31,728 bases of DNA, from positions 1 through 31,728 of IMG/VR virus record IMGVR_UViG_3300030102_002564; one strand, given 5' to 3'. Under the pieces are notes generated by a model that was not told the origin of the DNA, ran no database searches, and saw only the letters and a list, made by a program, of their open reading frames with translations. Shown piece after piece: positions 4,014-13,421 of this stretch. The DNA comes from a virus. Numbering within the stretch: position 1 is the first letter of the stretch; every line of letters starts with the position of its first letter. The position numbers were made by a program, and so were the translations under genes.

Positions 4014-4391
4014 ATGAATAAAGAAAATAAAATAAAATATGTAGAAGCCCTCGGTAATCTCATGGGTGGTATTAAAGAAAACTACAAAAATTGGGGTGGT
4101 GATATTGACTCACTATCTGATTCACAAAAAGAAATTAGACTTAGGATGATTGATGAGTTCAACAAAAACTTGGATATCAGAAGTGGTAGGAAGTTTGATA
4201 AGGTTGTGTCCAATGGTTCCGTTTGGGGTTTTGTTGCTAAAACAAATGGTGTATTAAAAGGTATTCCGTATTTCGTTGGTGATGTATTCAAACCAGCCGG
4301 TTGGAGTGCTCCAGCAAAACATGTTAGAGGTTCTATATTTTCTTCGAAATCAAATTGGTATAGTTGGACTGGTCCTAACTATCTTATATAA
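4014..4391 (+). CDS. Hypothetical protein (125 aa)
   Basis: Not recognised. The start at 4014 is chosen over an in-frame ATG at 3978 because the latter is inside the promoter, while 4014 has AAAGGA in the right place. The N-terminal half is helical and charged (NKENKIKYVEALGNLMGGIKE). The C-terminal half is richer in Gly, Trp and aromatic residues, with SNGSVWGFVAKTNG and KSNWYSWTGPNYLI, suggesting a compact beta domain. The next gene begins on the last base of its stop. Early expression is expected from promoter copy 3. Confidence 0.7.
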   Translation: MNKENKIKYVEALGNLMGGIKENYKNWGGDIDSLSDSQKEIRLRMIDEFNKNLDIRSGRKFDKVVSNGSVWGFVAKTNGVLKGIPYFVGDVFKPAGWSAPAKHVRGSIFSSKSNWYSWTGPNYLI

Positions 4392-4834
4392 TGAATAAAT
4401 GGGTTGAAAGAAATAAAGAAGAATATGGCGTTCAGATAATCGAACTCAAAAAGATTATCGAGCGTCAAGTCGTTGACTCAGGTAGTTCTGATGAATTTGC
4501 ATCTGATATGTATGTTGCTCTTATTAGTGGTCGAAAGATTACACCAAAGATGGAAGCGGCTATAGATAGAATAATTAAAGCACATTCACCAGATGAGTTA
4601 TTGAAACGAGAAGAGTGGGTTAACAAAGTCGTTCCTAAACTTTTGATGGTAGAAAATTTAATCGATGATACAAGCTGGACAGAAGATTATAAAGTAAATA
4701 CCAAAAGATTTATATCAAGTCTAGTAAAACAAGCTAGGTCTAGAAAGACTCTTTCCAAAAAACAAATGGATTCAGCTGCTAGTATTTATGCAAGGGTTAA
4801 AAAAAATATTAATAAAAATGAAAAAAGTGCTTGA
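4391..4834 (+). CDS. Hypothetical helical protein (147 aa)
   Basis: Not recognised. Translationally coupled to the preceding gene (TAATG). The protein is almost wholly helical with alternating charge: NKEEYGVQIIELKKIIERQV, then AIDRIIKAHSPDELLKREEW, then a basic C-terminal helix with SKKQMDSAASIYARVKK. The end resembles, in composition only, the basic helical end of the zinc-ribbon protein at 2815. Its TGA stop (4832-4834) lies inside the TTGACA -35 box of promoter copy 4. No catalytic motif is visible. Confidence 0.68.
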   Translation: MNKWVERNKEEYGVQIIELKKIIERQVVDSGSSDEFASDMYVALISGRKITPKMEAAIDRIIKAHSPDELLKREEWVNKVVPKLLMVENLIDDTSWTEDYKVNTKRFISSLVKQARSRKTLSKKQMDSAASIYARVKKNINKNEKSA

Positions 4835-4860
4835 CATGTATAGGTTTTTCTTCGTATCTT
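4831..4860 (+). promoter_or_regulatory. Repeated early-type promoter, copy 4
   Basis: -35 TTGACA (4831-4836), 18-base spacer, -10 TATCTT (4855-4860). The spacer segment TTTTTCTTCG just before the -10 box is shared with copy 5. The -35 box overlaps the stop codon of the upstream gene. The next ATG is at 4884 with a strong AAAGGAG. Confidence 0.85.
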
Positions 4861-4883
4861 TAGGTGTAAGATAAAGGAGATAT

Positions 4884-5234
4884 ATGAGTAATTTAAGTAA
4901 AGATTTGATTTTAGACGGTTATTGGGTTAATAAAAAGAGTGGAACTATCCATTGGGTTGCTGAATCTAAATCCGCTAATGGTGGTAAGAAGTTATGGACT
5001 CAAACTACTAACCTTAGTTATACTAGGGATTACTTCTTCTATGAAAAGAAGAGTATGGTTGACAATGGTTATGGTAGTATTGATAACTTCTTAAAGAACT
5101 ATGAGTTCATTTGTGATTCAGCTGATGTACCACATGATTTTTATCATTATGTTTTACATAACAATATTTTGAAAGAAAATTTCAAGTATGGTAAGATTAG
5201 TAAAAAAGATTTCTTTGCTAGAATTTTTAATTAA
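4884..5234 (+). CDS. Hypothetical protein (116 aa)
   Basis: Not recognised. First gene after promoter copy 4, with AAAGGAG six bases from the ATG. The N-terminal half has a beta-rich look with WVNKKSGTIHWVAESKS and KKLWTQTTNLSYTRDYFFY, and the second half is helical (YGSIDNFLKNYEFI; KISKKDFFARIFN). It is rich in aromatic residues. No motif or membrane segment is visible. Fourteen bases separate it from the next gene. Confidence 0.68.
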   Translation: MSNLSKDLILDGYWVNKKSGTIHWVAESKSANGGKKLWTQTTNLSYTRDYFFYEKKSMVDNGYGSIDNFLKNYEFICDSADVPHDFYHYVLHNNILKENFKYGKISKKDFFARIFN

Positions 5235-5248
5235 TAAAAGGAGTATAA

Positions 5249-5515
5249 ATGACTTATATTTATGAAACAGTAATGGGTACTAAGAAGTTAGTCGTGGAGT
5301 ATTGTTACTCATCATTACACAATAAAATTAAGGTTGTGGAGATGACGGCTGATGGTAAGTTCCATAGGATTAATTGGATGTCTGAGAATGGTAGAAATCA
5401 TTTGATGTCACAATTGATGAAGGACTACGATGGTATTATGTTAGGTCAACAAGATTATAATTCAGAGATAGATTTAGATAGGGACATACCAGAAATGTCT
5501 ATTGTTGGTGTATGA
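5249..5515 (+). CDS. Hypothetical protein (88 aa)
   Basis: Not recognised. AAAGGAG lies six bases upstream of the ATG. The first half reads as strands (YIYETVMGTKKLVVEYCYSS), followed by a short helix with RNHLMSQLMKDYDG and an acidic end (SEIDLDRDIPEMS). It overlaps the SWIM-type gene that follows by four bases, or by one if the second ATG of that gene is used. Expected to be expressed from promoter copy 4. Confidence 0.65.
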   Translation: MTYIYETVMGTKKLVVEYCYSSLHNKIKVVEMTADGKFHRINWMSENGRNHLMSQLMKDYDGIMLGQQDYNSEIDLDRDIPEMSIVGV

Positions 5516-5748
5516 TGACCAACCAACAACTATTAGACAAGGTTATCAAAACATTTGATGGTGAAATCATGGTTCCGAATCAATGGAGAGTTGATGGTTC
5601 CAATGGTAAACGCTATACAGTAAATTGGGATAAGTATCACAGACATTATAGCTGTACATGTTTAGGTTATACTTATAGACGAAGGTGTAGACATATAACA
5701 GAATTAAGTAATTCATTTGCATTAAAAAAAGGAATAAAAAATGGCTAA
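5512..5748 (+). CDS. SWIM-type zinc finger small protein
   Basis: A 78-residue protein whose centre reads YSCTCLGYTYRRRCRHI (about residues 46-62). This is the CxC...CxH arrangement of SWIM zinc fingers, which bind DNA or proteins and occur in bacterial, archaeal and eukaryotic proteins. The sequence before it (WRVDGSNGKRYTVNWDKYHRHY) fits the strand pair that usually leads into the motif. The family normally sits inside larger proteins; here it stands almost alone, which suggests a small adaptor that binds nucleic acid or a host protein. Two ATGs, at 5512 and 5515, are equally plausible. The gene overlaps both neighbours. Confidence 0.72.
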   Translation: MMTNQQLLDKVIKTFDGEIMVPNQWRVDGSNGKRYTVNWDKYHRHYSCTCLGYTYRRRCRHITELSNSFALKKGIKNG

Positions 5749-6184
5749 AAAAACATTTGAACAAAATGGTGGATATTATATTAATGGTGTTCCATATATG
5801 GATTGTAGGGTAACTGGTGAACCAGTTCGTAACGTCAGTACGGATGCTGTATCTGTCATGGGTAGTAGAGCTATTAATGGTCAACTTCATAAGTTGTTTC
5901 CTGATACAAGTAAACCATCATACAAACCAACTGGTAGACCAGCTGGTTGGCATTTTATGAATGAGTTTGTAGATGGAGATGGTAATGTTTTTCATAAGGG
6001 TGTAGAACAACCTGATTTAAAAGGCACACTACCACCTACTAAAGTTAAACCCGTCAAGAAGAAAAAAACTAAACGTAGGTCAAAAGAAGAGATACTTATT
6101 GCAAGAGAGGCCGAAAAGAAAGCGGCTCTAAAAAAAGCTGTACAAAAACAAAAAGATTTTTTAAACCACAAATTCGGAGATTAA
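5741..6184 (+). CDS. Basic hypothetical protein (147 aa)
   Basis: Not recognised. It overlaps the SWIM-type gene by eight bases. The first two thirds have many Gly, Pro and aromatic residues (GGYYINGVPYMDCRVTGEPV; GRPAGWHFMNEFVDGDGNVF), suggesting a small beta fold. From about residue 98 the protein is extremely basic, with KKKKTKRRSKEEIL and an Ala/Lys helix ending QKDFLNHKFGD. Such a tail usually binds nucleic acid, but no named domain is visible. Confidence 0.66.
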   Translation: MAKKTFEQNGGYYINGVPYMDCRVTGEPVRNVSTDAVSVMGSRAINGQLHKLFPDTSKPSYKPTGRPAGWHFMNEFVDGDGNVFHKGVEQPDLKGTLPPTKVKPVKKKKTKRRSKEEILIAREAEKKAALKKAVQKQKDFLNHKFGD

Positions 6185-6185
6185 T

Positions 6186-6308
6186 ATGTCAAAGAAAAAG
6201 AAAACCTATTGGGACGGGTATAAACAGTATACCTTAAAAGATGGAACTAAATTTTACGCTCGTGATGACCACGATGCTAATTTATATCGTAAGAAGGTTG
6301 GTGAATGA
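6186..6308 (+). CDS. Very small basic protein (40 aa)
   Basis: Not recognised. It starts one base after the preceding stop codon and overlaps the next gene by ATGA, so it fits exactly between two real genes. The 40 residues begin MSKKKKTYWDGYKQY and continue LKDGTKFYARDDHDANLYR, a pattern with more aromatic residues than a random frame would give. The tight spacing on both sides is the main evidence that it is translated. Confidence 0.58.
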   Translation: MSKKKKTYWDGYKQYTLKDGTKFYARDDHDANLYRKKVGE

Positions 6309-6610
6309 AACAAAATCTAACCAGAAAAAAAGATGGTTCCTATGTGTTAAAACATAAAACCATAAAGGCTAAAAAAGATGATTGTAAAGAGTGTGGTCAG
6401 AATCCAAAAAATCGTGAGTTAGGTTTATTGTATAGACATAACTCTGGTGATATGAATATGGTTAGAGATCACATTGAAGAACATCTTAGAGAGTATCCAA
6501 AACATAAATCCGTTACACCAAATTGGTGTGGTAGTTGTCATGCTCTCATAGACTATTCTGTGGAAGTTGATATAGATAAGACATTGGGTTTTTATGAAAA
6601 AGCTGATTGA
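6305..6610 (+). CDS. Cys/His-rich putative zinc protein (101 aa)
   Basis: No named family recognised. It carries CKEC at about residues 27-30 and CGSCH at about 75-79, separated by a His-rich segment with [19 protein letters not shown], so one or two zinc sites are likely. The flanks are basic at the N-terminus ([21 protein letters not shown]). The middle part has an HNH-like flavour (RH..., DH...H) but lacks the ordered HNH core, so I do not call a nuclease. It overlaps the deformylase gene by one base (TGATG). Confidence 0.62.
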
Positions 6611-7248
6611 TGTTATCAAGAGAATTTCTAACAGAACGAGGGTATTGTTGTGGTCACGGTTGTTTAATGTGTCCATACGAACCTAAACATACAAAGGACA
6701 ATACTATATTGAAAGTTATAAATTGTTTTAAAGAAGATAATCCATTAATACAAAAAAAGTTAAGGAGTGTATCAGTTGAAGAAGGATATGATATCGCCAG
6801 AAAATTATTTCAAATACTTAACAAAAGAGGAGACGGTATTGGGTTGGCAGCGAATCAAGTGGGAATTGATGCTTCGGTTGCCGTGGTTAACGTCAAAGAG
6901 CCAATCGTTCTTATCAATCCTAAAATCGTTAGGAAGGAAGAAGAAACAAGATATTACGAAGGTTGTTTAAGTTATCCGAAAAAAGGATGTCATACCAAAA
7001 GATATAAGACCGTAGAAGTTGAAGTAGATAATATGGAAAGTAACATGACCTTTGGTGCTGGTGATACTGATTTGGATTTATTAGAATCCGTTTGTGTTCA
7101 ACATGAGATTGACCATCTTCATGGTATGAGAATATTAGATAGAGCTATGGAACTTACCATTAAAAGAGATAAACCAAAGATTGGTCGTAACGAACCATGC
7201 CCTTGCGGTAGCGGAAAGAAATATAAGAAATGTTGTATAGGGAAATAG
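6610..7248 (+). CDS. def: Peptide deformylase with N-terminal Cys motif and C-terminal SEC-C motif
   Basis: Removes the formyl group from the N-terminal Met of new proteins at the ribosome. All three deformylase motifs are present (numbering from a TTG at 6607): [10 protein letters not shown] (77-86), EGCLS (118-122) and HEIDH (166-170), giving the Cys and two His metal ligands and the catalytic Glu. Two additions are unusual. The first 30 residues hold [13 protein letters not shown], a four-Cys motif I recognise from small bacterial proteins (DUF5522-like). The C-terminus has [15 protein letters not shown] (196-210), a SEC-C zinc motif as in SecA, which binds ribosomes and SecB. Marine phages often carry deformylase, but usually as the bare catalytic domain. 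The ATG at 6610 overlaps the previous stop and is preferred to the TTG. The end overlaps the glycosylase gene by 19 bases. Confidence 0.93.
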
Positions 7249-7634
7249 AAAGACCATTACTACAAGAGATATACCAAGATGATGCTTGGAAGATGTTGGT
7301 GTGTTGTATACTACTAAACCTAACTCAACGAAAACAGGTTGATAGTATTAGACATGAACTATTCAGTAAGTATCCAACAGAGTATGAGATGATGGAAGCT
7401 AATGAGGATGAACTATCTGAGATACTTAAACCATTAGGATTGTATAGAAGAAGAGCTAAGACTCTTATAAAGTTTAGTTGGATGTGGGTAAATGGATTTA
7501 GTGATGTCAAAGAATTACATGGAATTGGACAATATGCAAGTGACTCTTGGGAGATATTTCAGATGAACAACATGAATGTAACTCCAACAGATAAAGTATT
7601 ATTGGAATATTTACATCAAGAGAACGGTAAATAA
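7230..7634 (+). CDS. MBD4-like HhH-GPD DNA glycosylase
   Basis: A 134-residue protein matching the catalytic domain of MBD4-type thymine/uracil glycosylases, which remove T or U opposite G, as left by deamination of 5-methylcytosine or cytosine. Landmarks: [17 protein letters not shown] (20-36), [17 protein letters not shown] (67-83), helix-hairpin-helix [16 protein letters not shown] (95-110), and the catalytic Asp in [10 protein letters not shown] (Asp121). The C-terminal Cys cluster that binds iron-sulfur in endonuclease III is absent, as it is in MBD4. The start lies inside the deformylase gene, overlapping it by 19 bases. The gene directly abuts the next. A DNA methyltransferase is encoded 2 kb downstream, which makes a base-repair role on phage DNA plausible. 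Confidence 0.82.
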
Positions 7635-8171
7635 ATGTTATATCAATTAGAACTATTTAATAAAAGTGACGAACAGATAATTCTAGAAACAGAACAATAC
7701 TTTGATTATCTAGAAAAACCAAACGATGCATTTTCTGGTATGCCAGTTTGTCCTTTTCTAAAACCTGAAAGAATAAGTGATAGATTGTTTGTAAAGGTTT
7801 GGCGACCTACTAAGGTTTCTTTAGATAGTTTGTTCGAAGAGTTTTTTGAGTCAAAATATCACTCAGCATTATTTATATGTACTGATAGTAAAAACCTAAA
7901 ATGGAAAGATGTGACTAGAAAAAAGTATCAGAATACTCTACAAGATTTTTTACAATACACAGATTATAAAGCTCTTTGTTTTTCACCGTATGAAGAATGG
8001 AGTGCTGGTGGTGAGGAGACTAGAAAAAAATCACCATACTTTTTAATTAATGTTGCCACAAGAAAAGAGTTAGATAAGGCACATAAGGGTTTAATAAAAA
8101 CAAAATATTTTAATAAATTTAACGATGAGGAGATTAAGAAATTAAAAGTTTATCCAAAGAAAAAAAAGTAG
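7635..8171 (+). CDS. Hypothetical protein with MPVCPF motif (178 aa)
   Basis: Not assigned to a family. It begins on the base after the preceding stop codon. The N-terminal part has FSGMPVCPFLKPERISDRL (about 34-52). The rest is a mixed alpha/beta chain with FESKYHSALFICTDSK and YKALCFSPYEEWSAGGEETRKK and a very basic end PKKKK. The MPVCPF stretch looks like a conserved core. The last codons AAA AAA AAG TAG form the heptamer A_AAA_AAG, a classic -1 slippery site; a shift there would add 47 residues encoding a membrane segment (see the next feature and the findings). Confidence 0.72.
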   Translation: MLYQLELFNKSDEQIILETEQYFDYLEKPNDAFSGMPVCPFLKPERISDRLFVKVWRPTKVSLDSLFEEFFESKYHSALFICTDSKNLKWKDVTRKKYQNTLQDFLQYTDYKALCFSPYEEWSAGGEETRKKSPYFLINVATRKELDKAHKGLIKTKYFNKFNDEEIKKLKVYPKKKK

Positions 8172-9480: not shown

Positions 9481-11001
9481 TTGAATAAGAAGTTTTATGA
9501 AAAGAGCTCAATAACAAGTAAAGACAATCCAATAAATATTACATATGACGAACTACTACTCAAGTCTGATAAAGACATTGATAAGTGGATTGACGATTTA
9601 CGCAACTATGTAATAACTCAATGGGATGAACATGGTCAACCACCTGTTATTGGTCAAAACAAAGATGAGATTATAAACAAGTGGACAAAGTTATCCACTT
9701 TCAATGTAAACGATTTTTTTACACCTGATAATAAGGTAGTTAGAAATTTCAGTAAACTTGCATCTGGTGTGAATCAATTCTTTCCTACAATGTTAAAAAC
9801 AAAAATATCAACTGGTGTCAGTAGTGATAACGCTACATCTATATATGACATGTTCAAAGAAGATGACTTACGAGAAAAGTTTTCTAACGCTATGAAACGT
9901 GGGTTGTATAAAGATTCTATGTATAGTTTTGGTAAGTCTGTAAAGAATGAAGATTTGAATGGACTAAGTGTTGAAAAGTTTTTAACAAAATACAACAATG
10001 ATGAAGATGAGGGTATAACGTTAATACAATACAAGAAAACAAAACCTCTTTCAGAAAAAGGTAATTACGAATGGTTGGCTTTATCCGCTGATGATATAGA
10101 AGAATATTTAGATAGTGGTGTATTGACTAAACAAAATGTAAGAACTATTACAGGTGATATCATAGACAACTTTAAATTAAAGAATGGTCAAGATAGATAC
10201 TATTGGTATTTGGTTAGATTGTATCAAAGGAAAAAAAGAATATTTCCACCAGCTCTACAAATATTTAGATTAGGACTTGGACAACCAGCGGTTAACTTCC
10301 CACCACTAACAGCTAAATTTTTATATGAACATTTTACAGAACATTGTAAAGATGAAGATATAACCGTTTACGATCCTTCAAGTGGTTGGGGTGGTAGAAT
10401 ACTTGGTGCTATGTGTACTAACAGAAAGTTACACTATGTTGGAACAGACCCGAATCCTGATAACTTTGGTAGATATGAAAGTGTAGCTGATTTCTATAAC
10501 ACTCATACTACAAATAAATTTTGGGGTGATGATGACCAAAATACATATGATGTATTTAGAGATGGTAGTGAAGAGATAGGAAACAATCCTGATTTTCAAA
10601 AGTACAAAGGTAAATTAGATTTTGTATTTACATCACCACCTTACTTTAATCGTGAACAATACTCACAAGATGAAAATCAATCTTTCAAAAAGTTTTCAGC
10701 ATATGAAGATTGGAGAGATAACTTTCTAAGACCAACACTAACAACGGCATATGAATATCTAAAAAATGATAGATACATTTGTTGGAATATAGCTGACATC
10801 AAAGTTGGTTCTGATAAATATATTCCATTAGAACAAGATAGTATAGATGTTGTAGAGAGTCTTGGTGGAGAGTATAAAGGTATCTACAAAATGTTGATGA
10901 CTCGTATGGTTGGTATAGATGCCAGTTCTGTAAAAAACTCAGTAAAGATTGATAACACATATTATAAGTTTGAACCAATATTAGTATTTTATAAACCTTG
11001 A
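9481..11001 (+). CDS. DNA methyltransferase (N4-cytosine or N6-adenine type)
   Basis: A 506-residue protein that would methylate an amino group of DNA bases using S-adenosylmethionine. Motif I is VYDPSSGWGGRILGA (from about residue 296) and the catalytic motif IV is FTSPPYFN (about 383-390); the order I then IV, with SPPY, is commonest in N4-cytosine enzymes but does not exclude N6-adenine. The first 290 residues are an uncharacterised region that may recognise DNA (charged, helical, then LYQRKKRIFPPALQIF). No restriction nuclease is adjacent, so it is probably an orphan protecting phage DNA or altering host expression. The start is TTG at 9481 with AAAGGG upstream. The end overlaps the PLP-fold gene by four bases (TTGA), implying coupled synthesis. 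Confidence 0.88.
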   Translation: MNKKFYEKSSITSKDNPINITYDELLLKSDKDIDKWIDDLRNYVITQWDEHGQPPVIGQNKDEIINKWTKLSTFNVNDFFTPDNKVVRNFSKLASGVNQFFPTMLKTKISTGVSSDNATSIYDMFKEDDLREKFSNAMKRGLYKDSMYSFGKSVKNEDLNGLSVEKFLTKYNNDEDEGITLIQYKKTKPLSEKGNYEWLALSADDIEEYLDSGVLTKQNVRTITGDIIDNFKLKNGQDRYYWYLVRLYQRKKRIFPPALQIFRLGLGQPAVNFPPLTAKFLYEHFTEHCKDEDITVYDPSSGWGGRILGAMCTNRKLHYVGTDPNPDNFGRYESVADFYNTHTTNKFWGDDDQNTYDVFRDGSEEIGNNPDFQKYKGKLDFVFTSPPYFNREQYSQDENQSFKKFSAYEDWRDNFLRPTLTTAYEYLKNDRYICWNIADIKVGSDKYIPLEQDSIDVVESLGGEYKGIYKMLMTRMVGIDASSVKNSVKIDNTYYKFEPILVFYKP

Positions 11002-11750
11002 ATAAATTTTTAGACTATGGTTATGATGACATCAAGTGTGATGTCCAATTACCAAAACCAATAATAAAAGAATATGATGGTATACAAGTTGTTCGTGATG
11101 ACCTACTTGATGGTGGTACAAAACGAAGAGCCTTTACCATGTATATTGCATCTCTACCTAACATAGAAGAGTTTGTTTACGCATCACCAAGACAAGGTTA
11201 TGCTCAATTATCTTTAGCATACGCTTGTAGAGACTTGGGTAGGAAGTGTACTGTTACAGTTCCTAAAGGTAAACATTATTGGTTAACTGATGAAGCTATA
11301 AAACTAGGTTGTAACATAATAGAAGTACCAATGGGATTCTTAACTAACATACAGGCGAAGGCTAGATATTATTGTGAAGACAATGATGCACATCTAATTC
11401 CTTTCGGTGGTGACCATCCTATCATTATAGAAGCTATGACTAGGACTGCACTAAGTCTTGACATCCAACCTAAAGAAGTATGGACAGTTATGAGTAGTGG
11501 TGTATTAAGTAGAGGATTACAGAACGCTTGGCCTGATGCAAAAGTGTATGGTGTTCAGATAGGACATAACACAACAGAGGATGAGATGGGTAGGGCAGAA
11601 ACTTTTCGTTCTAAGTATAAGTTTCATCAAGAATGTAAAGAACCTGAACGACCACCATTCCCAAGTTCTTTAACTTACGATAGTAAGGCTTGGACATTCA
11701 TAAAAGAACATGCTAGTAAAGGAGCATTATTTTGGAATGTAGGAAAATAA
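10998..11750 (+). CDS. PLP-dependent enzyme, fold type II (threonine synthase/ACC deaminase-like)
   Basis: A 250-residue protein resembling the tryptophan-synthase-beta fold. VVRDDLLDGGTKRRAF (31-46) matches the segment with the PLP-binding Lys (Lys42). SPRQGYAQLSLAYA (63-76) sits where the family has its SGNHG-type loop, but the Asn is missing. MSSGVLSRGL (about 166-175) stands in for the glycine-rich phosphate-binding loop. It is shorter than the usual 320-400 residues. The C-terminus (YDSKAWTFIKEHASKGALFWNVGK, split here by DSKAW) fits lyase relatives. It starts at a TTG overlapping the methyltransferase stop, so the two are made together. Function is unknown: amino-acid lyase activity, or a step in base hypermodification, are both possible. 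Confidence 0.7.
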   Translation: MNKFLDYGYDDIKCDVQLPKPIIKEYDGIQVVRDDLLDGGTKRRAFTMYIASLPNIEEFVYASPRQGYAQLSLAYACRDLGRKCTVTVPKGKHYWLTDEAIKLGCNIIEVPMGFLTNIQAKARYYCEDNDAHLIPFGGDHPIIIEAMTRTALSLDIQPKEVWTVMSSGVLSRGLQNAWPDAKVYGVQIGHNTTEDEMGRAETFRSKYKFHQECKEPERPPFPSSLTYDSKAWTFIKEHASKGALFWNVGK

Positions 11751-11824: not shown

Positions 11825-12988
11825 ATGAAAATTAGTTATAATAAAAAACATCTATATGTTCCTGAGTATTTAGATTCATATATAAAAGACGGAGTATTAG
11901 AATATGTTAATGGTGGTAAAATAGAAGATATAAATATTCCTGAAGTTGATAACTCTTTATTAGATAATCTTGGTAGAGCTGATGAAAGTATAGATGATAA
12001 GGATTCAAAAAAATTTAAAGCTAGACTTGATTTAGATTTTAAAAACAAAAAAATCGGTTGGAGAAGTGGGACTTTGGCTGCAGTTTTTTTGATTGAGGAA
12101 GAAGGTAAAAATTATAGAAAATTATCTAATCAAGGATTTGCTCATAAAGTAGGAAAGGCAATTGAATTAGGAGTGGAAACTGTTCCTGGTGTAGTAGTTA
12201 GATTTAAACCAAATGTAAGTGAAGATGACCAACTTGAAACAAAACAAGAGCTACAAGATTCTGAGAATAATCCTGAGTATCATCCAAGTTCTAATCCAGT
12301 TAAAGAACAAGATAGAGTTTCATCATTAAAAAAATATAAAGTATTATATGATATGAAGAAACTCAAAAAAAATATTCATATTACTTTAGAGGAATATCTA
12401 AAATCTAAACTTATAAAAATGGGAGTTAAAGATTCCCAAACACAAATAAATCTCATAGATAAGGTTACAGGTGTTTATTCAAATATATCAAAAGCCCTTA
12501 CAAGTAAAAAAACAGTTACAACTTTTATTAAAGAACAATATAAGACTGAAAAACAATTTTCAGACTTTGAAGGTAACATAGTTTTTGGTGATAAATGGGA
12601 AGGTTTTAAGAAAAAAGAGAGTACGAAACCCATACAAATATTTTCTGATGTAGATACTAAAGTTAAGGTAATCCATATTCCACATGACTCTAGAGCTCGA
12701 GACATTGGATACTCGATACATTATATGGATGAAAAGATTAAAGAAGGTGAAGAGTATAGTCTAGGTCTTCAACTAACAGTTGAAAAACTATGTAAAGATT
12801 TGAATACTTTCGATGAAAGAAGAAAAGAACTTTACGAGTATGCGAAAAAAGAATGTGAAGTATGGAATAGTTATTGGGGACAAGATAGGGTTTTTATATT
12901 AGGTATCACTGCGAATAGAGATGATGAAAAAGATAAAAAAATAGGATTATTAACACCGAAAGAATATGAGCAAAAATTTATTAAATAG
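11825..12988 (+). CDS. Unrecognised protein (387 aa) of an accessory pair
   Basis: No family recognised. AAAAGAG lies about seven bases before the ATG, and a dedicated promoter is just upstream. The N-terminal third (about 1-100) is mixed, with NGGKIEDINIPEVDNSLLDN and a short beta stretch WRSGTLAAVFLIEEEG. A poorly ordered acidic linker runs from about 130 to 165. The middle is basic and helical (KKYKVLYDMKKLKKNIHIT). The C-terminal part has FEGNIVFGDKWEGFKKK, HIPHDSRARDIGYSIHYMDE and VEKLCKDLNTFDERRKELYE and ends with WGQDRVFILGITANRD. The codons are more AT-rich and Lys-heavy than in the neighbours. It overlaps the next gene by 23 bases. A host-takeover or anti-defence role is conceivable but unsupported. 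Confidence 0.72.
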   Translation: MKISYNKKHLYVPEYLDSYIKDGVLEYVNGGKIEDINIPEVDNSLLDNLGRADESIDDKDSKKFKARLDLDFKNKKIGWRSGTLAAVFLIEEEGKNYRKLSNQGFAHKVGKAIELGVETVPGVVVRFKPNVSEDDQLETKQELQDSENNPEYHPSSNPVKEQDRVSSLKKYKVLYDMKKLKKNIHITLEEYLKSKLIKMGVKDSQTQINLIDKVTGVYSNISKALTSKKTVTTFIKEQYKTEKQFSDFEGNIVFGDKWEGFKKKESTKPIQIFSDVDTKVKVIHIPHDSRARDIGYSIHYMDEKIKEGEEYSLGLQLTVEKLCKDLNTFDERRKELYEYAKKECEVWNSYWGQDRVFILGITANRDDEKDKKIGLLTPKEYEQKFIK

Positions 12989-13421
12989 TTTACCAGATAT
13001 TGTTTGGGATTCACTTTTAGCCAAAAGTAACGGTGGAAACACTCCAATGAAATATCTCTATAATATAGTAAGATTGTTTGATGATGATGTAGAAAAACTT
13101 TTTTTATTAAAAATACCTGTGTCCAAATCTTTATATAAAGAACATGGAGTCAAATTTTACGGAAAAGAATATTTTAATATTCCTTTACATAGAGAACATA
13201 TAATAGAAGTAGAAAAACGAGTTAAAAAGATAATTACACTAATTAAACGAAGAGGTTATAATAAAGAACAAACATATCAATGGTTAATTGATACACTATA
13301 TCTTGTTTATAAAAGTAAAGAAGAACATAATGAATCATTAAACGGTGGTAAAAATGCAGAAAAAGAATGCTTATCCGAAGATTTATACAGAAAAGAAAAA
13401 TGGGAAGTATTTCAAATATAA
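12966..13421 (+). CDS. Unrecognised protein (151 aa), partner of the preceding gene
   Basis: Not recognised. The 23-base overlap with the preceding gene indicates that the pair is expressed and probably works together. The protein is helical and basic: NLLNSLPDIVWDSLLAKS, MKYLYNIVRLFDDDVEKLF, then VEKRVKKIITLIKRRGYNKE and YQWLIDTLYLVYKSKEE. Several aromatic residues sit near charged ones, as in a helical bundle. There is no membrane segment or metal site. Composition is as AT-rich as that of its partner. Confidence 0.68.
   Translation: MSKNLLNSLPDIVWDSLLAKSNGGNTPMKYLYNIVRLFDDDVEKLFLLKIPVSKSLYKEHGVKFYGKEYFNIPLHREHIIEVEKRVKKIITLIKRRGYNKEQTYQWLIDTLYLVYKSKEEHNESLNGGKNAEKECLSEDLYRKEKWEVFQI

Follow-up and report, generated by a model that had tools for sequence, protein, structure and literature searches.

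Organization of the gene pair

In a marine phage sequence from IMG/VR, a gene encoding a DNA methyltransferase (MTase)-fold protein runs into a gene encoding a PLP fold-type-II protein, which raises the question of whether the two products act together on phage DNA. The window, that is, the whole stretch of 31,728 nucleotides that was analyzed, is part of a 33,180-base IMG/VR record. The closest relatives of its gp6-like baseplate gene are those of Microcystis phage Mel-JY01 (45.5%) and Flavobacterium phage immuto (41.1%). The features concerned are the following:

9481..11001, + strand: MTase-fold protein, 506 aa (Pfam, motifs, and AlphaFold)
10998..11001, + strand: stop/start overlap TTGA, 4 nt, read from the sequence itself
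10998..11750, + strand: PLP fold-type-II protein, 250 aa (PALP, phrog_7093, AlphaFold model, and the signature PPFPSxxTYDSKAW...LFWNVG)
11825..12988, + strand: 387-aa protein of unassigned function, relatives of which (clusters c49/c60) adjoin PLP or MTase genes elsewhere
12966..13421, + strand: 151-aa companion of the 387-aa gene (cluster c31, five unique records)

Both the MTase ORF and the PLP-protein ORF start with TTG. The initial annotation had stated that the MTase stop overlaps the TTG start of the PLP gene, and this was confirmed: the stop codon TGA occupies 10999–11001 and shares the TTGA with the start. Overlaps of the same type were present in many relatives, and the 4-nt overlap, as read from the sequence, suggests translational coupling of the two genes. 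The TTG start of the window PLP gene is supported because the ATG or GTG starts of relatives fall at the same residue (MNKFLDYGYDD in locus L017 and VNKFFDYGY in L020).

Downstream, the 387- and 151-aa genes (11825–13421) constitute a two-gene unit that recurs beside the PLP and MTase genes of other phages; relatives of the 387-aa protein lie beside PLP/MTase genes in L065, L066, L067, and L075. The 387-aa protein had no Pfam match and only a weak PHROG match, and the 151-aa protein matched no family in Pfam or PHROGs. Upstream of the pair, 6607–7248 looks by eye like a peptide deformylase carrying a SEC-C-like motif at its C-terminus, and an endonuclease-III-like fragment, also assigned by eye, overlaps it at 7230–7634.

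Coupling of the two genes across phages

The PLP family comprises at least 564 IMG/VR stretches, of which the best 80 were taken as relatives. In addition, tblastn detected PLP relatives in eight phage records, and 16 PLP loci were found in GTDB genomes, several of them with terminase-type neighbours. An MTase match was present in 87 of 115 PLP loci. Eight loci that duplicated others from one record were dropped before the following counts. The strict count took unique records that either extend at least 2.5 kb to each side of the PLP gene or contain a fusion. Of the 62 such records, 55 had the MTase no more than 2.3 kb from the PLP gene, and in 36 the two were adjacent or fused. A looser criterion, which also admitted any record with an MTase irrespective of flank length, gave 75 of 85 within 2.3 kb. 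Four loci (L011, L013, L014, and L018) had been found through the MTase query; when the MTase-query loci were excluded, the corresponding counts were 51/58 within 2.3 kb and 35/58 adjacent or fused. The seven misses among the 62 were L057, where no MTase was seen; L116, with no MTase within the locus; L060, L061, and L063, where the nearest MTase was 7.2 kb away; and two M6-like records. L116 and L117 carry a PLP relative beside unassigned genes of 402 and 329 aa, with no MTase within the locus, and are possibly a third context of the PLP family.

The two genes were less than 250 bp apart in 12 of 16 long two-gene records, compared to 0.18 records expected by random placement, and less than 2.3 kb apart in 14 of 16, compared to 1.28 expected; KY006853, where the genes are nested, did not enter this comparison, and kinship among the records makes the P value indicative only. 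Contigs of 142, 128, and 91 kb each contained a single MTase gene, which was directly beside the PLP gene. The MTase occurs upstream of the PLP gene, downstream of it, or in a nested form, and a quick tree of the PLP family implies six or more switches between these arrangements, two of them resting, by reading of the tree, on L011 and L013 from the MTase query. The treatment of the two genes as a pair in the initial annotation was therefore borne out by their adjacency, or fusion, in widely differing phages. Chance adjacency was ruled out by the record counts together with the random-placement comparison, and plasmid-borne metabolism was set aside, there being no plasmid match.

The closest association was found in Erythrobacter phages R6L and ZS04, in which a single protein of approximately 810 aa is composed of a ParB-like N-terminus, the MTase, and the PLP domain. 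In R6L, motif I is at residue 344, the PLP domain spans residues 397–625, and motif IV is at residue 664, so that the PLP domain lies inside the MTase domain. The spacing between motifs I and IV is 321 residues in the nested fusion versus 67–98 in 21 other homologues. The R6L genome paper lists the gene as a DNA modification methylase, and the word pyridoxal is absent from the available part of its text (PMC5463345). Physical association of PLP and MTase domains is established in these two phages only; elsewhere we infer it.

Context lends good support to the proposal that the action of the pair on DNA bases goes further than simple methylation: the coupling is conserved, a nested fusion exists, the neighbours are of hypermodification type, and the PLP protein is homologous to its counterpart in the M6-like thymine cassette. 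Our reading is that the MTase and PLP genes form a coupled post-replicative DNA hypermodification module (probability approximately 0.6).

Features of the PLP protein

The window PLP protein matched Pfam PALP (PF00291; E value, 9.1e-10; 38.8 bits against a cut-off of 35) and phrog_7093, annotated as threonine dehydratase (E value, 4.8e-35). The lysine of GGTKRR (residues 39–44), described earlier as retained, is indeed kept: Lys42 was invariant in 55 of 55 alignment rows, and the Schiff-base lysine was kept in 13 of 13 sequences of a second comparison that included the M6-like PAE1 enzyme. The replacement of the usual SGNHGQ by SPRQGYAQ was likewise found at residues 63–70, where P64, G67, and A69 are invariant in the 55-sequence alignment; the family consensus of this altered asparagine loop is SPxxGxAQ, and the SGNHG-type loop is not present. 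The asparagine loop differs among fold-II families, and SPRQGYAQ is a sign of a divergent fold-II branch, not of a different fold. The phosphate loop had been called degenerate. It is shortened (SSGVLSRG, residues 166–173, with G168 invariant in the same alignment), but the term overstates the case, since the loop is conserved across the family as SSG[VT]LxRG. At the C-terminus, P219, P220, F221, S223, Y227, D228, K230, W232, and W246 form a signature that is invariant in the 55 sequences and mostly retained by the M6-like PAE1 enzyme. In five comparisons of the window gene with relatives, dN/dS was approximately 0.08–0.13 (dN 0.094–0.128; dS 0.85–1.19), and the PLP gene is therefore under purifying selection.

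The AlphaFold model of the protein (pLDDT 94.3) was compared with solved folds. The best matches were an ACC deaminase homologue (1j0a; Z 24.7), D-cysteine desulfhydrase (Z approximately 24.4), and ACC deaminase (Z 23.5). These two families filled rows 1–16 among the 50 matches listed (Z 22.9–24.7), with one further ACC deaminase at Z 22.5 and other fold-II enzymes at 22.6 or less, a small margin. The fold-type-II scaffold is thus common to the window protein and to ACC deaminase and D-cysteine desulfhydrase (Z 22.5–24.7), but the window protein is shorter (250 aa versus 318–341 aa), shares 13–16% identity with them, has another asparagine loop, and is coupled to a DNA MTase. Among viral folds, the second-best match to the model was BFVD entry A0A481YNE5 from Pithovirus LCDPAC02 (E value, 1e-15; 19% identity).

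These nearest folds are enzymes of free amino acids, which, together with the PHROG label, would fit a PLP enzyme that acts on free metabolites in the manner of ACC deaminase, D-cysteine desulfhydrase, or serine-threonine dehydratase and is co-transcribed by chance with an ordinary DNA MTase. A glutamine synthetase gene beside the PLP gene in three records (L086, L090, and L097; family tested in L090, with matches to PF00120 and PF03951) also points in this direction. In L090 (8709–9770) and L097, however, this gene (cluster c63) sits immediately between the two genes of the pair, a position that counts in favour of the module, and it could be the source of an amide or nitrogen step. We nevertheless consider a free-metabolite role unlikely: two MTase subtypes are coupled to the family in several arrangements, the asparagine-loop and C-terminal changes are specific to it, and its relatives sit in a DNA hypermodification cassette. 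The insertion of the PLP domain inside the MTase domain also disfavours the amino-acid metabolism that the initial annotation had offered as an alternative.

Features of the MTase

The window MTase matched Pfam N6_N4_Mtase (PF01555; E value, 4.4e-7; 30.5 bits against a cut-off of 26.7). Its N-terminal half (approximately residues 1–265) has no assigned function, and its C-terminal domain is SAM-dependent, motif I being DPSSGWGGR (residues 298–306) and motif IV TSPPYF (residues 384–389), the latter followed by ExYSxD. The SAM motif I and the catalytic (S/C)PPY motif were aligned in 22 diverse MTase homologues.

Two MTase subtypes pair with the one PLP family: the window (T4-like) type, and a ParB-linked type in alphaproteobacterial loci that is characterized by DPFAGGSVRG and SCPPYxDLEVYSDD. 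The pattern PPYxxxExYSxD is common to both. In seven ParB-linked loci, the ParB-like N-termini or ParB proteins match one another, and the N-terminus of the window MTase matched none of these ParB-like parts. Phage ParB-MTase proteins (PF02195 and PF01555) have the same architecture as the ParB-linked subtype; the loci described here differ from them in that the PLP enzyme overlaps or is inserted, and in the N-terminus of the window MTase.

The AlphaFold model of the window MTase (pLDDT 86.6) was nearest to the Trm11/TrmN/Trm14 MTases (Z 15–17), whose target is the exocyclic amine of guanine, and many class I MTases scored nearly as high; a sequence search against solved structures gave no match up to an E value of 1. 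As far as the model goes, this fold likeness leaves the MTase target unfixed. Modification of RNA, for example tRNA, instead of DNA would agree with the tRNA MTases ranking nearest, but it appears quite improbable given the near-equal scores of other class I MTases, the Pfam assignment to a DNA methylase, and the ParB fusion and glycosyltransferase/oxygenase neighbours, which are typical of DNA modification.

Neighbouring genes and loss of the partner

Several genes beside the pair are of a hypermodification type. A TET-associated glycosyltransferase (TAGT, PF20691) cluster was found in 17 unique records, with one member tested; among 22 records searched whole, TAGT was above the cut-off in just two, which argues that glycosylation is no general part of the module. 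A cluster with a weak glycosyltransferase match occurred in 19 unique records, and a conserved 400-aa neighbour, glycosyltransferase-like by eye only, in 22. Asp/Arg-hydroxylase-type oxygenases (Asp_Arg_Hydrox, PF05118; family tested in L011 and L113) were beside the pair in three unique records. Other neighbours were ParB_N (PF02195), GmrSD_N with HNH, and GHKL ATPase. A Tet_JBP search gave no match in 21, and the control gave none either.

The slot beside the PLP gene is variable (e.g., L040, 11003–12688; L039, 7566–8801; L053, 10993–12201; L003, 4463–6001), and most of the slot genes had no informative Pfam or PHROGs match. They include GmrSD_N with HNH and ParB_N, and others look by eye like GIY-YIG or PD-(D/E)xK nucleases. 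Because some slot genes resemble nucleases, the modification island may also hold restriction-like parts, and these genes are possible restriction-like partners of the modification.

The PLP gene is missing from some loci. L012 has no PLP gene, and an oxygenase-like gene (4058–5392) comes after its MTase (the oxygenase that follows the MTase of L011 is at 4405–5700); the MTase also occurs without a PLP gene in L015, L016, and L019. L016 carries a deletion scar at 5998–8126, where an ORF opens with the 14 N-terminal residues of a PLP protein of the L018 type and continues as the C-terminal part of a TAGT-type glycosyltransferase, leaving the MTase alone; the deletion was read in L016, and translations were shown for L012 and L016. 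The arrangements in L012 and L016 indicate that the PLP partner is open to loss or replacement, and those in L012, L015, L016, and L019 that the MTase can act alone or with other partners. Such solitary MTases, the odd asparagine loop, and the short phosphate loop would suit a non-catalytic PLP-fold protein that serves as a structural or specificity subunit of an MTase making ordinary m6A or m4C, a very doubtful option in view of the retained fold-II scaffold and the lysine kept in all sequences of both comparisons, including the M6-like PAE1 enzyme.

Comparison with known DNA modification systems

PLP enzymes take part in making hypermodified thymines in some phages, and the initial annotation had connected the pair with that chemistry. 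In the M6-like Yuavirus SN1, the cassette SN1_019–SN1_024 encodes Nmad5, aGPT-Pplase1, a kinase, rSAM, a PLP enzyme, and aGPT-Pplase2 (PMC9476957), and M6 DNA contains 5-(2-aminoethyl)deoxyuridine according to the available part of its report (PMC6449724). The SN1 PLP enzyme (SN1_023) is a distant homologue that aligned with the window PLP protein at 23% identity over 218 aa (E value, 5e-7) and with relatives of the latter at E values down to 7e-13. It has the same C-terminal signature, PFPxxxxYDxKAW...FWNxG, and is also encoded in a DNA-modification cassette. The M6 PLP enzyme is reportedly a decarboxylase, as told by Lee et al. in 'Pathways of thymidine hypermodification'.

The likeness ends with this enzyme. 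M6-like cassettes comprise a pyrimidine hydroxymethylase, a kinase, aGPT-Pplase 1 and 2, rSAM, and Nmad5, whereas the MTase-PLP loci share the PLP enzyme only, and no MTase of the window family was detected next to the PLP gene of M6-like phages. Across the 22 records that represent the MTase-PLP group, no thymidylate-synthase-type hydroxymethylase (PF00303) was detected, compared to both of two M6-like controls; the 22 include the complete genomes KY006853, PV416405, and PP438422, many of the IMG/VR records are fragments, and four of the 22 carry an MTase without PLP or PLP without an MTase. In the local flanks searched, the SN1 proteins, apart from the PLP enzyme itself, matched only L024, and no homologue of the 5hmdU kinase, aGPT-Pplase, or radical-SAM enzyme was found near the pair. 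On these grounds, an M6-like modification derived from hydroxymethyluracil was rejected. DNA hypermodification by the pair is likely, but a thymine-type chemistry is not supported.

The CmoA/CmoX/CmoY system of Synechococcus phage S-B43 provides another comparison and a precedent, in which an MTase homologue adds a non-methyl handle for a second enzyme (PMC12783734, available part). The pair would resemble it in this division of labour, and ParB proteins are often nearby (PMC12783734, same part). According to that text, CmoX is a C5 MTase with SPPC that uses Cx-SAM, whereas the window family has SPPY/CPPY, and a PLP enzyme stands here where the CmoX/CmoY system has an amide ligase. CmoA (TIGR00740) was over the cut-off in none of the 22 records, with one weak match below it, and a CmoX-like carboxy-SAM system was therefore rejected.

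Proposed mechanism

For the hypermodification module, the DNA target, donor, product, order of steps, and chemistry are those that we infer. The MTase-fold enzyme would flip out a base and load a SAM-derived group onto an exocyclic amine; the SPPY motif suggests N6 of A or N4 of C as the position. Its associated partner, the PLP enzyme, would then either engage an amino-acid-type group on that base through a Schiff base or bring one in, and decarboxylation or beta/gamma-substitution would remodel this group. Further groups might be attached in some relatives, whether by glycosyltransferases or by a 2-oxoglutarate oxygenase.

A more specific form of this proposal is a minimal base-tailoring machine, in which the MTase-fold enzyme would add an amino-acid-bearing group to the exocyclic amine of A or C, the PLP enzyme would act on that amino acid while DNA still carries it, and the base would be handed over within one complex; we put it forward tentatively, as a speculative version. 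If true, this machine would consist of a single polypeptide in the Erythrobacter phages. With two enzymes, the most economical route would be transfer of 3-amino-3-carboxypropyl from SAM by the MTase and its decarboxylation by the PLP enzyme, though in these exact terms it is rather doubtful. The nocardicin 3-amino-3-carboxypropyl transferase ranked 41 and 50 among the 50 Foldseek matches listed for the MTase, scoring no better than other MTases, so the aminocarboxypropyl idea gains no support from it.

Implications

No description of an MTase-PLP DNA module was recognized in the literature searched; an earlier mention is possible, the likeliest sources (Lee et al.; Iyer et al., 2013) lying outside it. 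The PLP family, with at least 564 phage stretches, is labelled threonine dehydratase or is buried in DNA methylase annotations. Cultured phages that carry the pair include Erythrobacter phages R6L and ZS04 and Microcystis phage Mae-JY30. Hypermodifications of phage DNA defeat restriction and are a source of new chemistry, and the likely benefit of the module is to shield phage DNA from host restriction. If the base-tailoring version is true, an amino-acid-type hypermodification would be started by an amino-MTase and not from hydroxymethyluracil. The MTase-coupled PLP family points to a widespread and so far unrecognized base modification.
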